Source: a virus
DNA: 22,886 nt
Virus record (IMG/VR): IMGVR_UViG_3300023219_000675
Span: 1-22,886 of that record
Direction: 5' to 3' (one strand)
The notes beneath the pieces are model-generated. The model saw only the letters and a program-made list of their open reading frames with translations. It was not told the origin of the DNA and made no database searches. Made by a program: the position numbers and the translations under genes. Positions 1,536-21,766 of this stretch are shown one piece after another; the first letter of the stretch is position 1, and each line of letters starts with the position of its first letter.

Positions 1536-2004
1536 GCCAGACCTTCATCTAGTGGATGAGCCTCCCTGTGGCATACCCGATGATGAGTTGGAGAAACGAT
1601 ATAAGGAATGTGAAAAAATGACCGATCTTGAAACCGCCACCGAAGCCACCCGAGAGCTAGACGATGAAGTGCTACTGGCGTGTGGGTGGACGAAAAAGCG
1701 ATTTGTTGGCCCGGAAAACGATGAGGTCCACTGGCGCGATCCTGCTGGAAAGCGTGTTGGAAAACCCAAGCCCACCCGCTCAGTAGACGATGCCCTGATG
1801 TTGGTGCCAGAGGGGTGGGTGATGAAATATATGGAGGGGCCATATCCACCCAAATACAAACCACATGATTTCGAGATCGGAGATACTTCGCGTGTTCATT
1901 TAGTCACATTAGGCGCGTGGCCAGAGTGTGTGGTTATTGGAATGGCAGCAACCCCAGCTCTCGCCCTGTGCCAAGCAATTATATGGAGTCAGCAGGATGA
2001 GTGA
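1528..2004 (+). CDS. Phage ABA-sandwich-like protein (function unknown)
   Basis: A 158-residue protein, started at ATG 1528 (8-nt overlap with the upstream gene). Visible features are an N-terminal acidic helix, then LLACGWTKKRFVGPENDEVHW, a SVDDALMLVPEGW motif and a C-terminal ATPALALCQAIIWSQ. The combination of LACGW, DAL.LVPEGW and ATPALALC.A is typical of small phage proteins of the ABA-sandwich type found in nin-like accessory regions. Their biochemical role is not known to me. It sits between the two MazG-like genes. Confidence 0.65.
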   Translation: MNKPDLHLVDEPPCGIPDDELEKRYKECEKMTDLETATEATRELDDEVLLACGWTKKRFVGPENDEVHWRDPAGKRVGKPKPTRSVDDALMLVPEGWVMKYMEGPYPPKYKPHDFEIGDTSRVHLVTLGAWPECVVIGMAATPALALCQAIIWSQQDE

Positions 2005-2305
2005 GCATTTCAACAAATTAACGCCCGCTGAAGCCGAGCGACTGGCGTTGCTTTCCGAAGAAATGGGTGAAGCTCAGCAGGCTATCGGGAAAATATTGCG
2101 GCATGGATATGAAAGCCATAATCCAGATAAGCATGCAGGGCCATCAAACCGACGAGATCTGGAACAGGAGCTTGGAGATGCCAAACACGCGACAGAACGC
2201 ATGGTTTTAGCAGGCGATTTATGTGCCCGCCTGATTAACGTCTCTGCCGCCGATAAACAAATAAAGGTCGAAAGATATTTGCACCATCAGGAGCAATCCC
2301 AATGA
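1997..2305 (+). CDS. MazG-like nucleotide pyrophosphohydrolase
   Basis: A 102-residue helical protein whose ATG overlaps the preceding stop by 8 nt (ATGAGTGA). It carries the MazG pattern: SEEMGEAQQAIGK (EExxE) and RRDLEQELGDAKHATERM (ExxD), separated by RHGYESHNPDK. In this family these acidic residues hold Mg2+ and cleave NTPs or dNTPs to NMP plus pyrophosphate; phage versions may clean up non-canonical nucleotides or alter host (p)ppGpp levels. All catalytic acids look present, unlike the upstream paralogue. The length suits a single-domain phage MazG. The exact substrate cannot be told from the sequence. Confidence 0.8.
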   Translation: MSEHFNKLTPAEAERLALLSEEMGEAQQAIGKILRHGYESHNPDKHAGPSNRRDLEQELGDAKHATERMVLAGDLCARLINVSAADKQIKVERYLHHQEQSQ

Positions 2306-3296: not shown

Positions 3297-3785
3297 TTGT
3301 TGACCCGTAGCTTTGATCTGTTCAGCGACGACCGGCGATTCAGGTATGTCATGGGGCATATTTGGGATGAGGATTTGCCGGCCTTGTGTAGCTGCGCGCT
3401 GAATTCCTCGAAAGGGTCAAAGGACAAAAACGACCCTACAAATACTCGTCTTCAGGTGCGTGCTATGGCCATGAATCTCGGTGGCGTGATCTATGTGAAC
3501 GGCTTCCCCTTTGTCAGTTCGTCGCCAAAGGAAATGATGAAACAGGCTGATCCATTCGGGGATCGCGATCTAGCCGATAGCATCATCCTTAAATATGCAG
3601 CCAATAACTTCTTACTTTGTGGGTGGGGAAATCACGGCACGCACATGGGCCGCGACCAAGAACTTATCCACCTGTTCACAGATGCGGGAATCAAAATGCA
3701 CGCCCTAAAAATTACCACGCAAGGCCAGCCGTGGCATCCGCTTTACCTGAGTTATGACACAAAACCATTCGAATGGAGGCCCTGA
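3288..3785 (+). CDS. DUF1643 family protein
   Basis: A 165-residue protein with the DUF1643 pattern: an opening with DDRRFRYVMGHIWDEDLPAL, an NSSKG...NDPTNTR turn, AMAMNLGGVIYVNGFPF, a DPFGDRDLAD segment, LLCGWGNHGTHMGRD and a C-terminal G.PWHPLYL....FEW. This is close to full length for the family. The biochemical function is unknown; members occur in phages and near nucleotide-metabolism or defence genes. Its start lies 3 nt after the upstream stop and its 3' end has nearly the same junction sequence, so the gene looks like an exchangeable cassette. The family call is confident, the function is not. Confidence 0.85.
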   Translation: MSDLLTRSFDLFSDDRRFRYVMGHIWDEDLPALCSCALNSSKGSKDKNDPTNTRLQVRAMAMNLGGVIYVNGFPFVSSSPKEMMKQADPFGDRDLADSIILKYAANNFLLCGWGNHGTHMGRDQELIHLFTDAGIKMHALKITTQGQPWHPLYLSYDTKPFEWRP

Positions 3786-3797
3786 GTGATGATTGAT
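3777..3797 (+). repeat. Direct-repeat gene junction, right copy
   Basis: The right partner of the repeat at 3276-3296, with 2 mismatches in 21 nt. It contains the Arg-Pro-TGA end of the DUF1643 gene, a GTG triplet as spacer and the ATG of the next gene. Confidence 0.6.
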
Positions 3798-4001
3798 TAT
3801 TCGAAAATAAAGCCCGGCCAGAAACTTAGAATAACTGGGATGGGTGCGCCGGGATTCGCAAAGCTAGGCGACGTTGTAACCGTGAAAAGCTGCACATCAA
3901 AAAATAACGGCAGATGTGATGTTGTTCATGATGAATCGGGTAGGGAGGCGTTCTTTGTTTTAACATGCGGGGCTCAAAGGCTTGAAGAGATATCCCAATG
4001 A
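3789..4001 (+). CDS. Small beta-barrel (SH3-like) hypothetical protein
   Basis: A 70-residue protein at ATG 3789 (GTG at 3786 also possible). The sequence IKPGQKLRITGMGAPGFAKLG followed by DVVTVKSC, then CDVVHDESGREAFFVL, alternates short strands and turns like a KOW/SH3-type small barrel. Comparable small phage proteins are usually unannotated. It lies 3 nt after the DUF1643 gene, and its stop overlaps the next ATG as ATGA. I do not assign a function. Confidence 0.62.
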   Translation: MIDYSKIKPGQKLRITGMGAPGFAKLGDVVTVKSCTSKNNGRCDVVHDESGREAFFVLTCGAQRLEEISQ

Positions 4002-4671: not shown

Positions 4672-4722
4672 AGCCTATTGCTAAATCTCAGGACCCGGCA
4701 TCTCAAGAGAATTCTCCGTAAA

Positions 4723-4752
4723 GAGGGATCATATTGCCTCTGAGTATCCCTC
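4723..4752. terminator. Weak candidate bidirectional terminator at convergent junction
   Basis: An inverted repeat, GAGGGAT (4723-4729) and ATCCCTC (4746-4752), with a 16-nt loop, sits between the ends of the plus-strand early operon (4671) and the minus-strand late operon (4729). The minus-strand copy is followed by only three T residues and the plus-strand copy by none, so a classical intrinsic terminator is not shown. The placement is its main support. One arm overlaps the last codons of the zinc-ribbon gene. Confidence 0.28.
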
Positions 4753-4905
4753 AACCAAAGTCGGCCCGTGTAGTTCAATGTGACATTCCGAACACCGAAT
4801 ATACCATTCTTTGGGATCGTCTTTCGGGTAAAGCAGAAGCCATTCGGTATTCCCACAAGGACATTTCTGGATAAAATGAATCTCCGGAAAATCAACAATA
4901 TTCAT
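4729..4905 (-). CDS. Small zinc-ribbon protein
   Basis: A 58-residue protein on the minus strand, beginning MNIVDFPEIHFIQKCPCG. Cysteines 15, 17, 38 and 41 form a CxC...CxxC zinc ribbon (CPCGNTEW, then RCSECHIELHG). The regular ribbon spacing and the acidic tail show it is coding, although it is short and overlaps a longer but implausible frame. It is the last late gene, starting 12 nt after the lipoprotein stop, without a strong ribosome site. Such mini-ribbons occur in many phages, often without known function; DNA or protein binding is an inference. Confidence 0.72.
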   Translation of the reverse strand: MNIVDFPEIHFIQKCPCGNTEWLLLYPKDDPKEWYIRCSECHIELHGPTLVEGYSEAI

Positions 4906-4917
4906 TGTAATTGATTA

Positions 4918-5280
4918 TTATTCAATCTCAGGAACACCCCCGCCCTCGATAATCCTGATAACTCTATCCAGAACACCCGGAGCCAATTCACCAAAGGTTT
5001 GAGCCAGGAATTTTTCAACTTCGGCGCGGGTTCTTTGGCCTTCGAATGCCAAAACCTGTGAACCGTAAATTAATGAAAATGTTCCATCTGGGTTCTTACG
5101 AATTTCGATATTCCGGGAACCCTCTTTGCCATCAATGACGATCAAATGACATAACTGAAGTGTTTCAGGACAGGCTTCCGCCTCGAAATAAGTGATCCCT
5201 GCATAATCCTGTTTGCTCCACGGTGCGACACAACCGGTCAAAAGTCCCAACATCAGAATCGCAACTATATTCTTGATCAT
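4918..5280 (-). CDS. Phage lipoprotein, candidate outer-membrane spanin subunit
   Basis: A 120-residue protein with a clear lipoprotein signal: basic MIKN, hydrophobic IVAILMLGL, lipobox LLTGC with Cys17. The mature part has further Cys residues (EACPETLQLCHLIV), beta strands (NIEIRKNPDGTFSLIYG) and a helical C-terminus. It overlaps the holin-like gene upstream as ATGA and lies three genes after the endolysin. By position it could be the outer-membrane spanin partner of the coiled-coil protein at 5460-5783. However, it is longer and less proline-rich than Rz1-type o-spanins, so another periplasmic role, such as exclusion, is possible. Confidence 0.72.
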   Translation of the reverse strand: MIKNIVAILMLGLLTGCVAPWSKQDYAGITYFEAEACPETLQLCHLIVIDGKEGSRNIEIRKNPDGTFSLIYGSQVLAFEGQRTRAEVEKFLAQTFGELAPGVLDRVIRIIEGGGVPEIE

Positions 5281-7215: not shown

Positions 7216-9207
7216 TCAGTATTTTAACCTTATAAACAAAGTACCCAACGTTCCACCGCTGGCAAAGTTATATTCAGAAAACACCGGGTCTGCTGCAAGT
7301 GTAGCTGTAAATACATTTATAATACGAGCTGATCCGGAAATATCTATTGTATAAATAACCGTTCTGTTAAATGGTTCAGCCCCGGTTCCTATTTCTCCAT
7401 ATCCAAAAAGTTCAACTTGATAAAGTCCCGATCCAGAAGCCCATCCTATATCCAAAGACATATTATTTGCAGACGATATAGCAGAAAGTGGAAGATCAGG
7501 CCCACTTATTTGTGTAAAGGTGAAAACCTGGGGAGTAGCCCCATCTGTTTCTATCTTATAAACTGATTCTTCGGTCAGGAAAGGAGATGAACCGCTTGTT
7601 CGATAGTCTCCACCTCCATTAAGAAAGTTATTTTTCACATTGTGATTGTCTGCATTGGGCTGACCACCAAATGTCGAGGCGAAATTATGAAATGGTAAAC
7701 CTCCATCCTCGCCATATTGACCCGTCATTGTAATCCAGTCACCTGCACGGGTTCTGACAAGGGCCGTCAGTGCAGTGGCAACAACAACATTTGCAATAAG
7801 TTCATTTCCTTCCACATACAAATTATTGCACGCAGCAAAGTCCATCAGGAAATTTTCAGTTGTTTCTGAGCCGATCACAGTATTATTTATGACCTTCAAA
7901 CTATCATTCACCTGACCTTGAATCATGAAACAAGTATTATTGGAAATAATATTTCCCGAAGTCTTCGCTGGATCAGTATTTAAAGTTGCTGTTGAAATTT
8001 TCAGATCACTAATTCTCGGGACTGTTAAATTTTCAGTCTGGATTCGTCCGGAATTGCCGTCAACAAGATTATTCTTTGCCTCAAAATTCCCCGCATCTAT
8101 CTCAATATCAATGGTTCCGGAAATCCGGCTATTGATAAATTTGTTTTCATTTCCGTAAGTAAGCGCTATTGCTTGGCGGGTTTGACCAAATATCTCACAA
8201 TCATCTACAATATTATTGTCGGATGAATCCGTTAAGCGCCCAGTTTGCTGTCCTAGCAAAATACCATCACCGCGTGGATCAAAAATCTTCAGACGCTCCA
8301 TCTTGCAATTATTGCTGCCCCAGACTCTTATGCTATGCGAAAAATTATCTCCCCCCCCTGTTTGGGTAGCCTTTTGACCATCCATAGAGAAATCTCTCAG
8401 AATAACATTCTCCACCCCCGCAGAGGCATCGCCCAGTTCAATACCAGCATTTCCGGTAGTTGCATGAGGAATAAATTTAAATATTGAAGAAACGCCTTCA
8501 CCTTCAATAATAATATTGGATGGTGGATTTAAAGTATCATGGAAATAAGTGCCAACTAATAACCGCCATGTCCCCCCTCCCAATACTCCAAGAGCACCGA
8601 GCAATGCTTGTATTGCTATAGTATCATCAGTAGTTCCATCTCGTTTTGCATTAAACCATTCTGCAAGAAAAGGCCCATCGACGAGCATCAGCCACCTTCC
8701 CGTTCCACCTTCATCTGTCGCTAATATAGTTCCTGCATTGGCTGTGGCGGTTGATGCCGCAATGAATTGAAAAATAACAGGTTCTATGTCTCCTGCTGTA
8801 TTACGACCATTGACTTGACGTAATGTACCATCTGTTAAGGTTGCCTTCAAAAGCGCTGTCAAAGCGGCATAGGTATCCACCGAGGCCGTTCCGGTCACAT
8901 CTATCTGTGTGATATTGGAAACATTATCCCGTGCCCAGATTTCCGAACCGCCGGGAGCGGCTAAAAGACGAACATTGTAGGAAAGCTGTTGCAGGAAAAT
9001 AGCCGCATCCGGAAACGGACGTCCATCTGACCCCAATATAACCGGATTTGGATTTTCATTACCTGGGGTTAAATCCTTATCGGTGAAAGTATCCTGATCT
9101 GTAGTTGTTGATCCAGCCTCCAAAAATTCCACCGCTCCGCCAGAAACAGGATCACCATTGAGATCAAGAAACTGAGGATTGGGGTTGCTGAGATAATTAC
9201 CCGCCAT
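7216..9207 (-). CDS. Tailspike protein with P22-like head-binding domain and beta-helix
   Basis: A 663-residue protein, started at ATG 9207 behind GGAAGA (11-nt overlap with the previous gene). Residues 1 to about 100 (SNPNPQFLDLNGDPVSGGAV, GSDGRPFPDAAIF, YNVRLL) match the P22-tailspike-type particle-binding domain that docks on the portal/tail hub. From about residue 190, FNAKRDGTTDDTIAIQALL and GGGTWRLLVGTYF open a pectate-lyase-type parallel beta-helix, with repeated Asn/Asp-rich turns (NNCKMERLKIFDPRGDGILL, NNIVDDCEIFGQ, ENKFINSRISG). The C-terminal region of about 140 residues is beta-rich and probably trimerises. The protein should bind, and perhaps cleave, host surface polysaccharide. 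The catalytic residues and the sugar cannot be named. It takes the gene 9 place of P22. Confidence 0.88.
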   Translation of the reverse strand: MAGNYLSNPNPQFLDLNGDPVSGGAVEFLEAGSTTTDQDTFTDKDLTPGNENPNPVILGSDGRPFPDAAIFLQQLSYNVRLLAAPGGSEIWARDNVSNITQIDVTGTASVDTYAALTALLKATLTDGTLRQVNGRNTAGDIEPVIFQFIAASTATANAGTILATDEGGTGRWLMLVDGPFLAEWFNAKRDGTTDDTIAIQALLGALGVLGGGTWRLLVGTYFHDTLNPPSNIIIEGEGVSSIFKFIPHATTGNAGIELGDASAGVENVILRDFSMDGQKATQTGGGDNFSHSIRVWGSNNCKMERLKIFDPRGDGILLGQQTGRLTDSSDNNIVDDCEIFGQTRQAIALTYGNENKFINSRISGTIDIEIDAGNFEAKNNLVDGNSGRIQTENLTVPRISDLKISTATLNTDPAKTSGNIISNNTCFMIQGQVNDSLKVINNTVIGSETTENFLMDFAACNNLYVEGNELIANVVVATALTALVRTRAGDWITMTGQYGEDGGLPFHNFASTFGGQPNADNHNVKNNFLNGGGDYRTSGSSPFLTEESVYKIETDGATPQVFTFTQISGPDLPLSAISSANNMSLDIGWASGSGLYQVELFGYGEIGTGAEPFNRTVIYTIDISGSARIINVFTATLAADPVFSEYNFASGGTLGTLFIRLKY

Positions 9208-11884
9208 TTTGATCTTCCAATGCGATTGCGATATGACCCAAACCAATGGCTTCCAACATGCGGAAAGCAGCCCGTCTGTTTTTTGTAGCCCTTACCTGGG
9301 TGAGTTGAACCATGATTTCAGGATTAGCCAGAATATTATCCAGTGAACGGATGGTCGATTCCCTGTTGGTTCTGAGAAGTCCGGTTAAAGCCCTTCCTTC
9401 CCGTGTCAGGGGGGGAAAGGTTACTCTAAGTAATCCCTGGACCACGCTTCCCGGCTCTCCTGCAGCCTGCATAGCCTGAATAGCTGCGGCATCGGTAGGA
9501 CGCATTCTGGTGGTATCGAGAGCTTCCGTGAAAACCTCAAATCCGCGCCGCCATCTGGGTCCCATAATCCGGGTCAGTTCTTCAACGATTTCCTTGTTCT
9601 GGGATAGTCCGACCAGACTGGTAAAATCCAGCCTTCCGGGTTCCTGAGAAGTGGCGCGGGTGCTGGCACGACGCAACTGGGCAAGGGTGGCTTTTTGAAA
9701 TTCTTCAAAGACAACTGGATCACGTTTGGCAATGATCCGTGCCCGGCGCAGATTTTCCGGAATATCTCTGGCCCGTCCACTGAAGACCCGGTTCATAACC
9801 TGTGTCGGATCGAGTTTCTGGAGATTCATTCCGAAAGTGCGATTGAGATCATCGGTGATCCGGGTCAACCGGGTCGTCAGTCTTTCGGATTCACCCAAAG
9901 TGCCGCTCAGTGTTGAAAGTGTTTTGTTTGTTTCTTCATCAAAGAAAGCGTTCAGAACGGTCTGGTTTTTGTTGCGGAAATCCTTGAATCTCTTTGCTGT
10001 CATTCTGCCCGTTTTTGGATCAAGAGCCGCCTCACGCATTGCCGACAGTAATCCTTGTTGAATTTCCAGTCTTGCTCCCGGCTGGAATTGAAAAGTCGGA
10101 TCGCTGAAGACATCGGCCATCTTGCGGGCCAAATCAGGACTTCTTAAAATGGTTGGAATTACTCTATCATCGGCCAGTCTGAATCCACCGCCCTCTGCCG
10201 GTTGTAACAATCTTCCGACCAGACCCCTATCTATCCGGCCTTTTGCAGCGGCGAAATCGGCCTCCAGATTAACCATATCCAGGGCAATGTCCGGCCTTCC
10301 TCTGAGGGCGGCACCACGGGCGATTTCAAGCGATTCTATCAGGGATTCGATCTGTCCGATATTTCGTCGAGGAGAAAGATTCTTTCTGATCAGGCGTCGT
10401 TCGGCACGAAGATCGGAGAGGGCTCTTTGTACAACTTCGAAAGAAGCCACACCCTCACTGGCTCCAATCGCATCTTCAATCACTGTTCTATTTTCCGGTG
10501 CAAGCGAAGCAAATATATCTTCATCCAACTGTTTTAATGATCGTCTTGCCGTCAATGCAATAGGGGCCAGACTGACCTGTGTATCTCCGGTTGCCGCTCT
10601 TAATTGGTCATAACGGGCGTCAAAGCGGGTTTCCAGTGCGTCTCTCTCACCTTCGAGGGTGGCTCGGATGGCTGCGCCAGCATCAATTGCCTGAACGGTG
10701 GTTAATTGTTCCTGCCGCTGTAAACCAACATCAAAGGCTTGCAATTGACGACGTTGTTCAGCTATGGCCGCTTGTGGAGCCTGACGGGCGACCTGTTGTA
10801 ACTGTCGGCCCGCCACAGCCGTCGGAACACCTTCCGGACCGAGAACCTGTTCTGCCGCTTGTTCAACAGCTTCGAATTGTTGTCTTCGTTGCGCGCGTAA
10901 TTGTTCGCCGGGAGGTCTGGCGCGGATCGCTTCGGTGGCTCCTCTGAGTTCTCTGGATTGAACAGCGGCCACATCCCGCAAGACTTGTTCGGTATTCAAG
11001 GGCAGATCGGTACCAAAACTTTCCGAAAACTCGGCCTGAAGCCTTCTGCCGGCTGTCAGTCCTTCCTCTAAAGCCGGCCCGCCAAATTCTTCCAATACTC
11101 CGGCAGGCGCGGTTGGTGTGGGGGCTCCCCGCAAGAGACGTCTTACACCCGTTCCCACACCAAAGGTCAGAGCATCAATCGCTGCCGCTTGTCCGGCTTC
11201 GGTGGCGGCCATAATGGCTTGTTCGCGTGCCGTAAGATCGGGATTAACATCTAAGGCTCGGCCAATTTCCAGACGGATAGCCTCACCGATTCCTGCCCCC
11301 AATCCAGCTCCAGCAATACCTCCTGGCGCACCTCCTGCCAAGGCTCCAGCCACCCCTCCGACAACTTCGGGTACTGCCACGGCAGCGGCACCGGGTATAG
11401 CACCAATATCTGCCGGATCAAATCCGGGTGGATTAAAGAATTCTTCCTGACCTGTTTCAGGGTTGATAAACGTAATTCTTCCTCCAATTTCAGGACGTTG
11501 GCCGATAGTAACAGGCTGACCGAATTGTTGTTCCAGAGTAATTCTAGCTCCCTCCGAAGGATCGGCAGCAAATCCGGCCCTTGCTCGGGCACTGATTTCA
11601 GCCCCTCCGGGCGCTATTCCGGCAGCAGCACCCAAAACACCGGGCGTTGGAGGAACGGTTGGTTCAACACCAGCGGCTCGTGCAAAAGTCCCAGCAAGCG
11701 GGTCCAGTGGTGTTGGTGGCACGGCGCCGATGACTTGCTGTTGCTCTGCGGTTAACGGAGGTAAGCCCAATAAACCTCTTTGTGTAAGTTCATCGATTAC
11801 AAATTCTCGGGGGTTCGCTGTTCCATCGGGAATCTGGGCAACGATTTGTCTGCCATCAGGTAAAATAACTTCAACCTCTGCCAT
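9197..11884 (-). CDS. Large DNA-ejection (internal virion) protein, P22 gp16 position
   Basis: An 895-residue protein. The N-terminal about 45 residues (EVEVILPDGRQIVAQIPDGT) form a small beta module also seen on other phage ejection proteins. Residues about 165-205 are a Gly/Ala-rich hydrophobic stretch (VVGGVAGALAGGAPGGIAGA, then GLGAGIGEAIRLEIGRA) that could insert in membranes. The remainder is almost wholly helical, rich in Arg, Gln and Glu, with coiled-coil parts around 330-420. By order it is the third of three ejection proteins (gp7, gp20, gp16 in P22), stored in the capsid and delivered through the envelope ahead of the DNA. There is no sequence match I can vouch for. The start overlaps the upstream stop by 1 nt (TAATG). 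Confidence 0.8.
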   Translation of the reverse strand: MAEVEVILPDGRQIVAQIPDGTANPREFVIDELTQRGLLGLPPLTAEQQQVIGAVPPTPLDPLAGTFARAAGVEPTVPPTPGVLGAAAGIAPGGAEISARARAGFAADPSEGARITLEQQFGQPVTIGQRPEIGGRITFINPETGQEEFFNPPGFDPADIGAIPGAAAVAVPEVVGGVAGALAGGAPGGIAGAGLGAGIGEAIRLEIGRALDVNPDLTAREQAIMAATEAGQAAAIDALTFGVGTGVRRLLRGAPTPTAPAGVLEEFGGPALEEGLTAGRRLQAEFSESFGTDLPLNTEQVLRDVAAVQSRELRGATEAIRARPPGEQLRAQRRQQFEAVEQAAEQVLGPEGVPTAVAGRQLQQVARQAPQAAIAEQRRQLQAFDVGLQRQEQLTTVQAIDAGAAIRATLEGERDALETRFDARYDQLRAATGDTQVSLAPIALTARRSLKQLDEDIFASLAPENRTVIEDAIGASEGVASFEVVQRALSDLRAERRLIRKNLSPRRNIGQIESLIESLEIARGAALRGRPDIALDMVNLEADFAAAKGRIDRGLVGRLLQPAEGGGFRLADDRVIPTILRSPDLARKMADVFSDPTFQFQPGARLEIQQGLLSAMREAALDPKTGRMTAKRFKDFRNKNQTVLNAFFDEETNKTLSTLSGTLGESERLTTRLTRITDDLNRTFGMNLQKLDPTQVMNRVFSGRARDIPENLRRARIIAKRDPVVFEEFQKATLAQLRRASTRATSQEPGRLDFTSLVGLSQNKEIVEELTRIMGPRWRRGFEVFTEALDTTRMRPTDAAAIQAMQAAGEPGSVVQGLLRVTFPPLTREGRALTGLLRTNRESTIRSLDNILANPEIMVQLTQVRATKNRRAAFRMLEAIGLGHIAIALEDQNGG

Positions 11885-16574: not shown

Positions 16575-17045
16575 TTATGCGAACGGTGTAGCCAAAGTGC
16601 CAACACCATGAATCACACCCTCGATTCCCCATGTAGTTAAACTGAGGCATGTGAGCTTCACTTGGGTGCCAACATTACGGCCTGTGACAGCACTGTCAAA
16701 GTCACACGACACAGTTGACGAAATGGTGGCGACGAAACTGTCGCCACCTTCAGCTACCACGGTAGAAACAGCAGCAACGCCACCACCGATAAAGGTGGTA
16801 GCCGCGTCCGTGTCAATGGAGTAAGAATTACTCGAACCTGCAACTGTGATCAGAAACTCAAACTCCATACCAACCGCAGGTGCGGGCAATGTGTAGATAA
16901 TGCCAGCAGCCCGGTCAAACATACAAAGCGAACCTGACTCTGATGCTAACAAGATACGAGTTGCACCTTCACCAGAAATGACCTGCCTGCGTTGACCTTG
17001 TACCAGCGCTCCATCAGGAGAATTTGTTCCAATTTGTTCAGCCAT
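16575..17045 (-). CDS. Putative capsid decoration / head structural protein
   Basis: A 156-residue beta-rich protein. Features are an N-terminal polar arm (AEQIGTNSPDGALVQGQRRQ), ATRILLASESGSLCMFDRAA, then TLPAPAVGMEFEFLITVAGS, IDTDAATTFIGGG and a C-terminal WGIEGVIHGVGTLATPFA. The pattern (LPAP..G..F.F.VT, later GT....C....W.v.g....GT....F) is common among structural proteins encoded just after coat in marine and soil phages and fits a jelly-roll or trimeric decoration protein. It starts with a 1-nt overlap (TAATG) with the small gene before it. P22 itself has no gene in this slot. Confidence 0.7.
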   Translation of the reverse strand: MAEQIGTNSPDGALVQGQRRQVISGEGATRILLASESGSLCMFDRAAGIIYTLPAPAVGMEFEFLITVAGSSNSYSIDTDAATTFIGGGVAAVSTVVAEGGDSFVATISSTVSCDFDSAVTGRNVGTQVKLTCLSLTTWGIEGVIHGVGTLATPFA

Positions 17046-17236
17046 TATCTGATCCTTCCTTGTTCCGGATTCCGTCTGGCTGAGAGTTTACCTTCTCCCT
17101 TGATTTCATACTCATCCGGCTTTTTGAGCTCTTCAAGTAAAGCGAAAGGGTCTTTCTTCCAGCCTTTTGGATTTATGCCATTAACGACTCGGTAAACAAC
17201 CTCGCCATCAATTATCTTGTAAACATGTCTATCCAT
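17045..17236 (-). CDS. Small hypothetical protein between coat and decoration genes
   Basis: A 63-residue basic protein with an N-terminal beta hairpin (HVYKIIDGEVVYRVVNG), NPKGWKKDPFALLEELKKPD and a basic tail (KGEGKLSARRNPEQGRIR). The start overlaps the coat stop by 8 nt and the stop overlaps the next ATG by 1 nt, which supports a real gene. It could be a minor head protein or an assembly chaperone; the sequence gives no direct hint. I do not recognise the family. Confidence 0.65.
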   Translation of the reverse strand: MDRHVYKIIDGEVVYRVVNGINPKGWKKDPFALLEELKKPDEYEIKGEGKLSARRNPEQGRIR

Positions 17237-18428
17237 CAGCGTGAATCCTTGCTGCTAAACGACCTTCACGGAGCGTTCTGAAGCCGTAGAGGACATCAAT
17301 ACGGGCCGGAAAGAGATCATTGTTAATGTCATAATTGCGGACAATCCGCATCGAGATTCCTTCAAAAACTTCACGGGCTGCGAAATGTAATCCTTCAGGC
17401 ATGATCAAATCCGCAGTTGCGAAGGTGAAGGCATCGCGGTGGAATACCAGATCGCCATTCAAGGATTCACCGGCTCCGGCACCAACCTTGACAATTGCCG
17501 CGTCATCGGCAGGAGAGCCAGTGACGTTCTGTTTTGCGCCGGAAACCACCATTACCGGAGTAATCGCCAACGAAGTAGCCGAAGCCCCGGAATCCGCAGT
17601 AATCGCAAATTCTTTCAGAAAACCCTGATCGATCTTGGTTTCCTGATGAACCTGATTAACACCGGCAAAGGTAATGATGTCACCTTTGAGGAAGGTTGTG
17701 CTTCCGGTATCGATCGTGATTGATGCGCCCGACTGGCCGGCTCCGTTAACCAGATAAGCCGTGGTCTTGGCAGCGGTTCCAGTGACATGATCCGCAACAT
17801 GGGTGGTGGCAAAGAAATCAAAGCCAGCCGTGCGGCCCATCATGCCATCCAGATATTGTTCGGAAATCTGGGTCGAATCTTGAAACAAACCCTTCAGTGA
17901 ATCAACGATAGTCACCTGTGATCCAGTGGAAAGTAGAGCCGTTCTGGTGCTATCCATCGGTGCCAGATTGTCATCCAGCGCCTGTCCGCCCTGAAGAATA
18001 TTCAGAAAAGACAGAGCCGCCGCATCATTGTCAACGATGTTGGGTACATCCAGCGTCACACTCTGAAGAACATCTGCCTCAATATTTGAAGCCAAAACCG
18101 CCATTGCCGGATCGAGAATCCTATGGGAAAAATCATCCAACTCCATTGTCAGTTCACGGCTTGAAAAGGTCGTATCAACACCTTTTTGGGTCGCGACCGT
18201 CAAAGTTTCAGAGGCCTCAACAGTATCCTGTACCTGGATCGTTGCGCCCGTTCGTATCACATATTCATTAGGCAGTCTGATTCGCAGGTTTTCACCAATC
18301 TTGGCACCTTCATTGGCAAAACGATCATCATATTGACGATTGATCCTGCCGATAAAGGTCATTTTCTGATGTAATATCCGCAAAGCTTCACGGGTAATTA
18401 TATCAGGGGTTAAAATGGTGTTTGCCAT
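17229..18428 (-). CDS. Major capsid protein, P22 coat-like
   Basis: A 399-residue HK97-fold coat protein of the P22 type. The start MANTILTPDIITREALRIL, then RQYDDRFANEGAKIGENLRI and QKGVDTTFSSRELTMELDDF match the N-arm and E-loop area of P22 coat homologues. The central LDDNLAPMDSTRTALLSTGS and the late GFRTLREGRLAARI are also typical. The protein forms the icosahedral shell around the scaffold. It begins directly after the scaffold stop (TAAATG) with AGGA about 9 nt upstream. The length is near that of the P22 coat (about 430). Confidence 0.92.
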   Translation of the reverse strand: MANTILTPDIITREALRILHQKMTFIGRINRQYDDRFANEGAKIGENLRIRLPNEYVIRTGATIQVQDTVEASETLTVATQKGVDTTFSSRELTMELDDFSHRILDPAMAVLASNIEADVLQSVTLDVPNIVDNDAAALSFLNILQGGQALDDNLAPMDSTRTALLSTGSQVTIVDSLKGLFQDSTQISEQYLDGMMGRTAGFDFFATTHVADHVTGTAAKTTAYLVNGAGQSGASITIDTGSTTFLKGDIITFAGVNQVHQETKIDQGFLKEFAITADSGASATSLAITPVMVVSGAKQNVTGSPADDAAIVKVGAGAGESLNGDLVFHRDAFTFATADLIMPEGLHFAAREVFEGISMRIVRNYDINNDLFPARIDVLYGFRTLREGRLAARIHADG

Positions 18429-19250
18429 TTATCTTAGTCCTTTTGCGCGACGCTCCTCATTTCTTTGATTAATCCAGTCTGCTGTACTGAGAGACGCGGC
18501 ATCTATGGTTGGCTGTGTGCCTCCGACTGGATTAGGTGGTTCCGGAGCATTCGTCTGTTGCGGTTTAGGACTGGGTTTTGACACTTCGGCCTCAAGACGG
18601 CCAATCGCCAATGCCATTTTTTGAAGCGGCAGACGAGAAATCCGGGCAGCGACATCCGGGTTTTTCCCCAGATGATAAGCAATGTCGGGACCTTTATCCG
18701 ATTCCATGAAGATATTGGCCATGTCCTCGGTAATCCGGATCGTTGGATTCTTTACGACATCATCAAAATCAGCATGCTTCTCAGCAAATTCTGCCGACTT
18801 GTTTTGCCATGTGTCCCGTATTCCTGCCTGTTCATTCACGCCGGCCTGCTGTTTTAAGGCAGCATCGACCGTCGCCTTGGCAATCTGGGCAGCCTGATCC
18901 GTGACCCATTTATTGTTTGCGACCGCAAACTTGTCTTGGTCAAACTCAAACTGTTCCAGGGTTGGCTGTGGCTCAGACTTTACGGGTTGCGGCGTTTGGG
19001 GAGGAGTTATCTGATTTCTCAGACTCAAAACCTCCTGCCTCATATATTCACCATATTCCCGCAAGGACTTAACGTCACTTACCAGTCCGGTTATACGTTC
19101 TTCAGCCCGATTACGCTTGGGCTCTTCGATTTCCGGGGGCGATTCCGGCTCCGCAACCGTCTGTTTGGGGGACGAATCCACTTGTGAAGATTCCGCATCT
19201 TCGGGCGAGGGGGATGTTTCCGCTACATCCGGAGCGATTTGATCAGTCAT
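18429..19250 (-). CDS. Capsid scaffolding protein
   Basis: A 273-residue, highly charged protein. The N-terminus is acidic and Pro/Ser-rich and disordered (DVAETSPSPEDAESSQVDS). A coiled coil follows (RITGLVSDVKSLREYGEYMR). The centre is helical (WVTDQAAQIAKATVDAALK, FAEKHADFDDVVKNPTIRI, DIAYHLGKNPDVAARI). The C-terminus ends basic (WINQRNEERRAKGLR), like the coat-binding tail of P22 gp8. The place between portal and coat and the low complexity are typical of scaffolds, which guide procapsid assembly and leave before packaging. TTAAGG precedes the ATG. Confidence 0.88.
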   Translation of the reverse strand: MTDQIAPDVAETSPSPEDAESSQVDSSPKQTVAEPESPPEIEEPKRNRAEERITGLVSDVKSLREYGEYMRQEVLSLRNQITPPQTPQPVKSEPQPTLEQFEFDQDKFAVANNKWVTDQAAQIAKATVDAALKQQAGVNEQAGIRDTWQNKSAEFAEKHADFDDVVKNPTIRITEDMANIFMESDKGPDIAYHLGKNPDVAARISRLPLQKMALAIGRLEAEVSKPSPKPQQTNAPEPPNPVGGTQPTIDAASLSTADWINQRNEERRAKGLR

Positions 19251-19271
19251 AATAACCTTAATGGTCCTTCC

Positions 19272-19299
19272 TTGTCAAATGTTAACCTTGAGATAAGAT
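19272..19299 (+). promoter_or_regulatory. Putative sigma-70 promoter for the antisense two-gene cassette
   Basis: TTGTCA (19272-19277; one mismatch to TTGACA), a 16-nt spacer and TAAGAT (19294-19299; four of six to TATAAT) lie just upstream of the plus-strand genes. The start point would fall near 19306, giving a very short leader. On the minus strand the same -35 bases read TTGACA, but a matching -10 there would overlap the scaffold ATG. Seen by eye only. Confidence 0.4.
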
Positions 19300-19321
19300 T
19301 TTAGAGGTGGTATCGGTGGAT

Positions 19322-19525
19322 ATGCCTACAATCCATGATGATCTAATCAAGGAAATGGCCGCCCTGATAAAAAGAGTGACCAAGAAAGCCGATCTCAAAT
19401 TGGTTGCTGCCGAAATGTTGAGATTAGTAAATGATGATATTGTAGAACATCCTGATTTGTGGCCTAAAGATTTGGAAACCCAGATGGCAGAGGCTAATGT
19501 GTTGATTTCGGAGCATTTCTCGTGA
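19322..19525 (+). CDS. Antisense cassette gene 1, small helical protein
   Basis: A 67-residue helical protein on the plus strand, within an otherwise minus-strand virion operon. It reads MPTIHDDLIKEMAALIKRVT and continues with charged helices (LVAAEMLRLVNDDIVEH and LETQMAEANVLISEHF). GAGGTGG at 19304-19310 could serve ATG 19322 or GTG 19316. The stop overlaps a GTG of the next gene (GTGA), so the two form a coupled pair. I know no family for it. A separate promoter and reverse orientation suit a moron-type insert: a gene expressed independently of the lytic late genes. Confidence 0.65.
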   Translation: MPTIHDDLIKEMAALIKRVTKKADLKLVAAEMLRLVNDDIVEHPDLWPKDLETQMAEANVLISEHFS

Positions 19526-19692
19526 GTAAAAAGAATAGATTAATCCCGTTCGATCAGATGGTCCGAGAAACCTTGGCGCTTGCTAAGAAACACTCGAAGG
19601 ATTTAACTCCAGAAGAACAGGAACAATTCCTGAAAGGTGTTTTCTATTTCTTTGCTGGTCAACCCTTTGGTGAAACTAATCCCCCACATTAA
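19522..19692 (+). CDS. Antisense cassette gene 2, small protein
   Basis: A 56-residue protein that starts at GTG 19522, overlapping the previous stop as GTGA. It reads MSKKNRLIPFDQMVRETLAL followed by KKHSKDLTPEEQEQFLKG and an aromatic end (VFYFFAGQPFGETNPPH). It is basic at the start, helical in the middle. Its end overlaps the 3' end of the portal gene tail-to-tail by 17 nt. I do not recognise it. With gene 1 it could be an antitoxin/toxin-like or anti-host pair, but no known toxin motif is visible. Confidence 0.6.
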   Translation: MSKKNRLIPFDQMVRETLALAKKHSKDLTPEEQEQFLKGVFYFFAGQPFGETNPPH

Positions 19693-21766
19693 TCCTGACC
19701 TGACCCGTATCTGAGCGAGCCAGCCTGATTTCCTCTTCCTTCAACATGTTATCCAGTTTCTTTTCAACAATCGCTTCCATCTGCTGCTGAATGTCCAAAG
19801 GCAGTCTTTGCTGGGCTTCGTCAGTGGCCTGGGCGTCCTTGGCGGCCTTGGCCTGTGAAGCCTGGGCTTTGGCCTGTTCGGATTTGATCAGGGCCAACTG
19901 GACCGGATCAGGCTGCTGGGGAGGAATGGCCTCGGCCTCTTCCTGGGTCGGCTCTACATCACCGCTGGCAATAAGTCTGCGCCTGACCCTCTTTTCAAAC
20001 TCGTCAGCATCGGGAATATCCAGATTCTTGACAATCAAATCCGCGCCGACCTCAGCAAGAACGGGTATGAGTCCGGTGGCTTCAATCAGATCACGGACGG
20101 CTTGTCGTTTCTGGGTGGCAAAGGCCGGTCCGATGGTCACTTTGACATTGTAACGTCCGGCAGAGAGGTCCATTTTTCTGCTTTTGGCCTCGTCATAAGC
20201 GTTGATTTTGACGAATTCCTCCTGACCATCTAACCCTAAGATTCTCACCGTTCTTTCGGTGTCATAGACCTTGGGAATCATATCGATGAGAATTTCACCG
20301 GTGAATTCCAGAGCCTTGGTCAGATTGTCCATGAATTCAAAGGAACCGACATCTCCCTGACGCTGGCGGGCGCGGATGGCTTCACCGGATTCCTGTGGAC
20401 CCTGTTCTCCCATGGCCGGTTCAAAGAAACCATTGGTGGCTCTGATGTCGTCAGCGTCCATAGTGGCTAATGAAATCAAGGCAGCAGGAACCTGAGCACC
20501 GGAAATCCGTTCGGGCCGAATACCGGGAGCCAATGGATCGGGATTATAGGTTAAAACAGGTTTATTCTTGGCATTGGCATCGGCCCATTCGGTTTCCTTG
20601 CCAGTGATCATCTTGTCCGTAACCAACCACTGGGCACGTGGGGTGTTGGCAACCACCTCGGTCATGGTGGTACGGCTAAAGTTATAGACCCGTTGAGCAT
20701 CATGGGAATGGCGGATCAGCGACTGGGAAAGATGTTCGCCTTCGATATTAATGAAACGACCACACATTTTGACCACCGGAATAAATTGCCAGTCGTATTC
20801 TATCGGGCCTTCGAGAATCTGGGCCCCGTCAATCTTCCACCACGTCACTTTGGAAGCACGGGCCTCGCGGATTTTCTCTTTACCCTCGGAATCCTTGGCA
20901 ATCACCGGCAACGGTGCAAAATCTTGATCATCGGATCTTTTTTCATTCTCTCCTGCGGCTTCCTTGAGGGCGGCCTCAACCTCTTTGGTCAGCTCAACCG
21001 TTCTGCCGTCGGTAAGAAGAGCGATTTTCTTATCGACCGGATCACGCCGGAAATATTCTGCCACCCGTAACTGATCCCGCTCGAACCAGCCCCGGTTATC
21101 ACGGGGAACACCAATACTTTGGGCCTTATCGGCTTTATCGTCACCGAACAAGGCCCGATGCCGTTCCTTAGAAATCCGCTCGGCAATCAGACATTTGTTC
21201 TGATCGCGTTTGCGGGGGTCCTGGGCCACGGGGTCCCAGAAGACAGTAAACGGATTATAGACCGGCTTGATGAAGATTTCCTGATCGAAAGAGCGGTCGG
21301 AAGCAAACTGGGGTAATATCCGCCATGCTCCCCATCCTCCCGCTACCGCATGTTTGAAGGCCATGTCGTAAGCGGTCTGGGCATCGGACATATCTTCGAT
21401 ATTACGGATCAGTCCAGAAAAAACTTCCGCCAGTTCGGGATCGGAATCGCCGTCTGTGCCCCTGATCTTTATCTGGGGGGTGGCTTGACGCTGATCACCG
21501 ATAACCTGATTGACGGCCCCGATAAGCCGGTTAAACACGTAACAGGGCCGGTTGCCGCGTTCACGAACAGTTTCCTGATCCCAGTGGGTATCATCGCGAT
21601 AAACCATATGAAGGTCTTCGCGCATTCTCTCCCGTTCCAACGAATCGGCCCCATTGGAATTCTTCATGAACTCCTTGACCTCGCGGATTAAATCCGCTTC
21701 ATCATGGGGTGGGCCTACCTGATCATTATGCTCACTGCCGTGTTTGCTTCCGTTATGTTTACTCAT
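19676..21766 (-). CDS. Portal protein, P22-like
   Basis: A 696-residue protein of the P22 portal (gp1) type. RGNRPCYVFNRLIGAVNQVI, then GDQRQATPQIKIRGTDG, is the family's signature near residues 70-105. Further typical parts are FKHAVAGGWGAWRILPQF, YNPFTVFWDPVAQDPRKRD and the central NGFFEPAMGEQGPQESGEAI. The C-terminal about 70 residues are a long Gln/Ala/Lys helix (SEQAKAQASQAKAAKDAQA), like the barrel helix of P22 portal that projects into the head. It makes the dodecameric DNA channel and binds terminase, gp4 and the shell. The length is close to P22 gp1 (725). The start overlaps the terminase stop as ATGA. Confidence 0.92.
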   Translation of the reverse strand: MSKHNGSKHGSEHNDQVGPPHDEADLIREVKEFMKNSNGADSLERERMREDLHMVYRDDTHWDQETVRERGNRPCYVFNRLIGAVNQVIGDQRQATPQIKIRGTDGDSDPELAEVFSGLIRNIEDMSDAQTAYDMAFKHAVAGGWGAWRILPQFASDRSFDQEIFIKPVYNPFTVFWDPVAQDPRKRDQNKCLIAERISKERHRALFGDDKADKAQSIGVPRDNRGWFERDQLRVAEYFRRDPVDKKIALLTDGRTVELTKEVEAALKEAAGENEKRSDDQDFAPLPVIAKDSEGKEKIREARASKVTWWKIDGAQILEGPIEYDWQFIPVVKMCGRFINIEGEHLSQSLIRHSHDAQRVYNFSRTTMTEVVANTPRAQWLVTDKMITGKETEWADANAKNKPVLTYNPDPLAPGIRPERISGAQVPAALISLATMDADDIRATNGFFEPAMGEQGPQESGEAIRARQRQGDVGSFEFMDNLTKALEFTGEILIDMIPKVYDTERTVRILGLDGQEEFVKINAYDEAKSRKMDLSAGRYNVKVTIGPAFATQKRQAVRDLIEATGLIPVLAEVGADLIVKNLDIPDADEFEKRVRRRLIASGDVEPTQEEAEAIPPQQPDPVQLALIKSEQAKAQASQAKAAKDAQATDEAQQRLPLDIQQQMEAIVEKKLDNMLKEEEIRLARSDTGQVRINVGD

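Follow-up and report, generated by a model that had tools for sequence, protein, structure and literature searches.

The window analysed here is a virus record of 22,886 bases from a relative of Salmonella phage P22 (a P22-head phage), and its right two thirds are occupied by a minus-strand virion operon that carries terminase, portal, scaffold, P22-type coat and tail genes. Within this operon, the genes for the P22-type coat protein (17229..18428, P22_CoatProtein, E 6.1e-36), the scaffolding protein (18429..19250, PHROG 8865, E 7.5e-44) and the portal protein (19676..21766, P22_portal, E 9.5e-156) all lie on the minus strand. An earlier note had placed two small, GTGA-coupled plus-strand ORFs between scaffold and portal, and this was confirmed for frames at 19307..19525 (ORF A) and 19522..19692 (ORF B, 56 aa). 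The reported geometry held as well, as ORF A stands head-to-head with the scaffold gene across a divergent spacer (19251..19315), while ORF B is convergent with the portal gene and covers its 3' end with its last 17 nt (19676-19692). The G+C content of the scaffold-portal gap, 40%, falls in the bottom 2.5% of operon windows of equal size, which we counted in favour of the accessory reading given below.

The start of ORF A has to be corrected. The frame is open up to GTG 19307, corresponding to 72 aa, and the likely start is GTG 19316, giving a gene at 19316..19525 that encodes 69 aa. The latter codon is preferred because it is preceded at 5 nt spacing by a strong SD sequence, UAGAGGUGG, with a duplex energy of -10.3 kcal/mol, and GTG 19307 has no comparable one; an SD as good as this is found at 0.66% of the start codons in the window. 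ORF B has an SD of -5.8 kcal/mol at 7 nt, and its translation would probably be coupled to that of ORF A via the GTGA overlap.

To what extent such frames arise by chance was assessed with 20,000 dinucleotide-preserving shuffles of the scaffold-portal gap. Tandem ORFs with minimum lengths of 70 and 55 aa occurred in 0.25% of the shuffles, and 0.055% contained such a pair overlapping by 4 nt. Codon usage deviated from the shuffles with z values of 3.05 for ORF A and 3.19 for ORF B, and the codon scores of 0.30 and 0.26 bits/codon fall within the range of the 20 accepted genes (-0.05 to 0.40). Since both scores exceed those of all 59 spurious ORFs of at least 50 aa in the same late operon, the highest of which reached 0.22, both frames look translated. 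The alternative that chance frames in a degraded insert or a spacer, rather than genes, account for the ORFs would agree with the lack of a homologue in any search, and a single ORF of 70 aa would indeed mean little, as 25% of the shuffles contain one of at least this length. However, the codon signal in both frames, the strong SD and the 4-nt coupling render this explanation improbable.

The description of both proteins as unrecognised in the earlier note was borne out by every type of search. Profile scans against Pfam, PHROGs, NCBIfam and PADLOC gave only matches at E ≥0.07, and nothing usable was obtained from tblastn searches of phages (ORF A and ORF B) and plasmids (ORF A only), from phmmer against the PDB, or from viral-contig scans with ORF A, ORF B and portal patterns. 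Likewise, no homologue of ORF A or ORF B was present among 322 loci, including relatives with complete head genes, or in 369 genomes of the class of locus L176 (described below), while 50 whole records yielded matches only at E ≥0.08, most of them in long unrelated frames. The ORF A product is acidic (pI 4.8) and predicted to be helical in a low-confidence three-helix AlphaFold model computed without an alignment (pLDDT 65.9), for which a fold search returned no match in the PDB and viral matches only at E>2. For the ORF B product (pI 8.1), a weak AlphaFold model, likewise without an alignment, predicts two helices (pLDDT 70.4).

Two small coupled genes with an acidic first product and a second product of pI 8.1 may recall a toxin-antitoxin or exclusion pair, in which the acidic protein A would neutralise B and the module would serve the prophage or infecting phage for stability or for the blocking of rivals; morons of lambdoid phages often act in exclusion, for example sieA of P22 (PMC2629481). 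Nevertheless, the net charge of the ORF B product is only +0.7, the fold models are weak and without a match for ORF A, and many other functions fit the layout too. Pfam, NCBIfam, PADLOC and PHROGs place neither protein in a type II toxin-antitoxin family, and a SieA-like function finds neither a family match nor a phage homologue for either ORF. We therefore file the pair as a moron rather than as a toxin-antitoxin or exclusion system, which we regard as unlikely. Of the candidate roles proposed in the earlier note, the moron-like accessory one is retained on account of the coding signal, the layout and the varying cargo of the junction, whereas toxin/antitoxin or exclusion activity lacks support from homology.

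No recurrence of the pair was found, but the region is missing from the only near relative. This nearest phage (L248, IMGVR_UViG_3300023284_001041) is 88% identical in coat and syntenic in the tail region, and its contig starts 26 nt before the coat gene and contains no portal. The portal of the window is divergent, with a highest identity of 43% among those found, and no relative of ORF A or ORF B is present in L273-L278, the six loci whose portals come closest after that of L053. No integrase was detected in the window or in a 30-kb relative, both of which are fragments; several coat relatives are located on long bacterial scaffolds, as would be the case for prophages. Two further observations concern the comparison with L248. 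A 156-aa protein encoded downstream of coat (16575-17045, minus strand) is 92% identical in this phage and is more conserved than the coat protein. In addition, a tailspike-like gene encoding a right-handed beta helix (7216-9246, minus strand) matches this relative only in its N-terminal part, a pattern to be expected when a receptor-binding part has been swapped.

Relatives were collected with the coat protein gene as query, and 161 loci with recognisable portal, scaffold and coat (not dereplicated) were surveyed, the scaffold being taken as the long ORF directly before coat. The gap between portal and scaffold had a median of 76 nt; it was shorter than 150 nt in 98 of the 161 loci and measured at least 150 nt in the other 63. 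Most of the cargo lies on the same strand as the virion genes, and its contents differ between loci. Hence, phages of the wider P22-head lineage accommodate cargo at the portal-scaffold junction. In P22-like phages, morons in the morphogenetic cluster were described only between genes 16 and 9 in the epsilon34 study, which asked whether this position is the sole one tolerating insertion (PMC2629481). The remark in the earlier note that P22 has no genes at the place of the pair agrees with this description, although the wider lineage uses the site often. The ant moron of P22-like phages (immI and sieA region) differs from the pair in position, between genes 16 and 9, and in its proteins; no relation of ORF A or ORF B to ant, arc, mnt or sieA was detected. 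Apart from this junction, six loci (L039, L040, L046, L048, L050 and L055) have about 0.6-1.1 kb between the scaffold match and coat, which makes a second variable junction, and in L014:5001-6516 (MW202674) the annotation splits the P22-type coat gene into two pieces, which are separated by about 220 nt and flank a small ORF.

Cargo of a recognised family was encountered in L176, a phage in a Glaciecola MAG with 64% coat identity, where a Tad2-like (anti-Thoeris) gene (4703-4972, plus strand, PF11195, E 2e-24) occupies the junction. As in the window, small accessory genes lie between portal and scaffold; unlike the window pair, this cargo has the same orientation as the virion genes and belongs to a recognised anti-Thoeris family. 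A small gene of unknown family follows the Tad2-like gene. Antisense cargo was seen in two relatives. L043 (IMGVR_UViG_3300009788_001785) has the same layout as the window, with two small overlapping antisense genes (1674-2166, minus strand) that stand head-to-head with scaffold and end at the portal stop. Its proteins are unrelated to ORF A and ORF B, and the overlap amounts to 14 nt versus 4 in the window; the first protein (103 aa) matches RNA_pol_A_CTD, the RNA polymerase alpha C-terminal domain, at E 1.6e-5, and neither protein was matched in the phage collection. L032 has one antisense gene (3403-3987, minus strand), which also ends at the portal stop and encodes a 194-aa protein with an N-terminal CxxCxxCC motif and no Pfam match. 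The antisense layout thus recurs at the junction, and the proteins do not. A candidate antisense ORF at the junction of L180 had no database match, and antisense ORFs in L008, L024, L122, L137 and L201 were set aside, as a same-strand ORF explains the gap equally well or better.

Being on the other strand, ORF A and ORF B cannot be expressed from the late transcript, and the orientation makes it likely that the pair is expressed independently of the surrounding operon. Most simply, transcription would start from an own promoter in the 19251-19315 spacer, which holds the SD of ORF A and a weak sigma-70-like site (TTGTCA-16-TAAGAT, 19272-19299). The promoter-like sequence mentioned in the earlier note does exist, with a 9/12 match, but it is indistinguishable from chance, as eight such sites were found in the region versus 6.4 ± 2.6 expected from shuffles. 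A better minus-strand match (TTGACA-18-TATTAT, 11/12) overlaps the scaffold start codon and would initiate inside the gene, so it was considered incidental. An Rfam match to mir-219 was likewise dismissed, scoring under the gathering score and being meaningless in a phage.

Between ORF B and position 20964, no plus-strand terminator-like hairpin was found, and plus-strand transcription would therefore yield RNA complementary to part of the portal mRNA. Together with the head-to-head and convergent positions relative to scaffold and portal, and with the alpha-CTD-like protein of the L043 pair, this could point to a regulator of the late operon, the RNA or proteins of the pair tuning portal and scaffold as antisense RNA or by binding the divergent spacer. 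On the other hand, the junction is short or empty in most relatives, so that such control is not needed for assembly, and no DNA-binding family was found for ORF A or ORF B. We thus hold a regulatory role to be rather unlikely.

Taken together, ORF A and ORF B probably constitute a small antisense accessory cassette, a moron of ORFan genes at the portal-scaffold junction, with the layout of a noncontiguous operon and shut-off by late transcription. Morons are defined as independently expressed extra genes of an operon that look inserted in a comparison of related phages (PMC2629481); the prevalence of gaps below 150 nt and the different cargo of other loci correspond to the insertion part of this definition. 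A further trait of morons is that virion assembly and lysis do not depend on them, and relatives with complete head genes contain no homologue of ORF A or ORF B. The codon usage of the pair resembles that of late genes, which we counted against the moron reading, and a recent foreign origin is thus not shown. A precedent for the layout is the immune gene taiEcA of phage phi80, which is divergent and interrupts the Q-controlled late operon as a noncontiguous operon; it is made in the lysogen, and its product falls once Q is supplied or the late operon is on (PMC11364771). The window pair shares the opposite orientation inside a late operon, and a continuous late transcript across 19251-19675 is assumed. 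The two differ in that the pair is known from its sequence and comprises two ORFan proteins (56-69 aa), whereas taiEcA is located close to the packaging module, its 26-kDa product has a known target in tail assembly, and a separate counter-defence gene accompanies it.

By analogy, the cassette would be expressed while the late operon is silent, in early infection or lysogeny, and late transcription crossing it from the other side would switch it off, as in phi80 taiEcA. The two small helical proteins would probably act jointly, with the host or rival phages as their target. It is a doubtful extension that they form a two-protein module of no known family, which would be switched by collision of its own transcription with the late virion transcript, be directed against rival phages or host defences and, as a side effect, control portal dosage through antisense transcription.

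For the wider P22-head lineage, these results mean that the portal-scaffold junction carries extra sequence in about two fifths of the 161 loci of the survey, which were not dereplicated, with cargo that is antisense a few times and once includes a Tad2-like anti-defence gene. The window pair belongs to the few antisense examples, and both of its proteins are ORFans; the survey thus marks the portal-scaffold junction as a site where new accessory genes can be sought.
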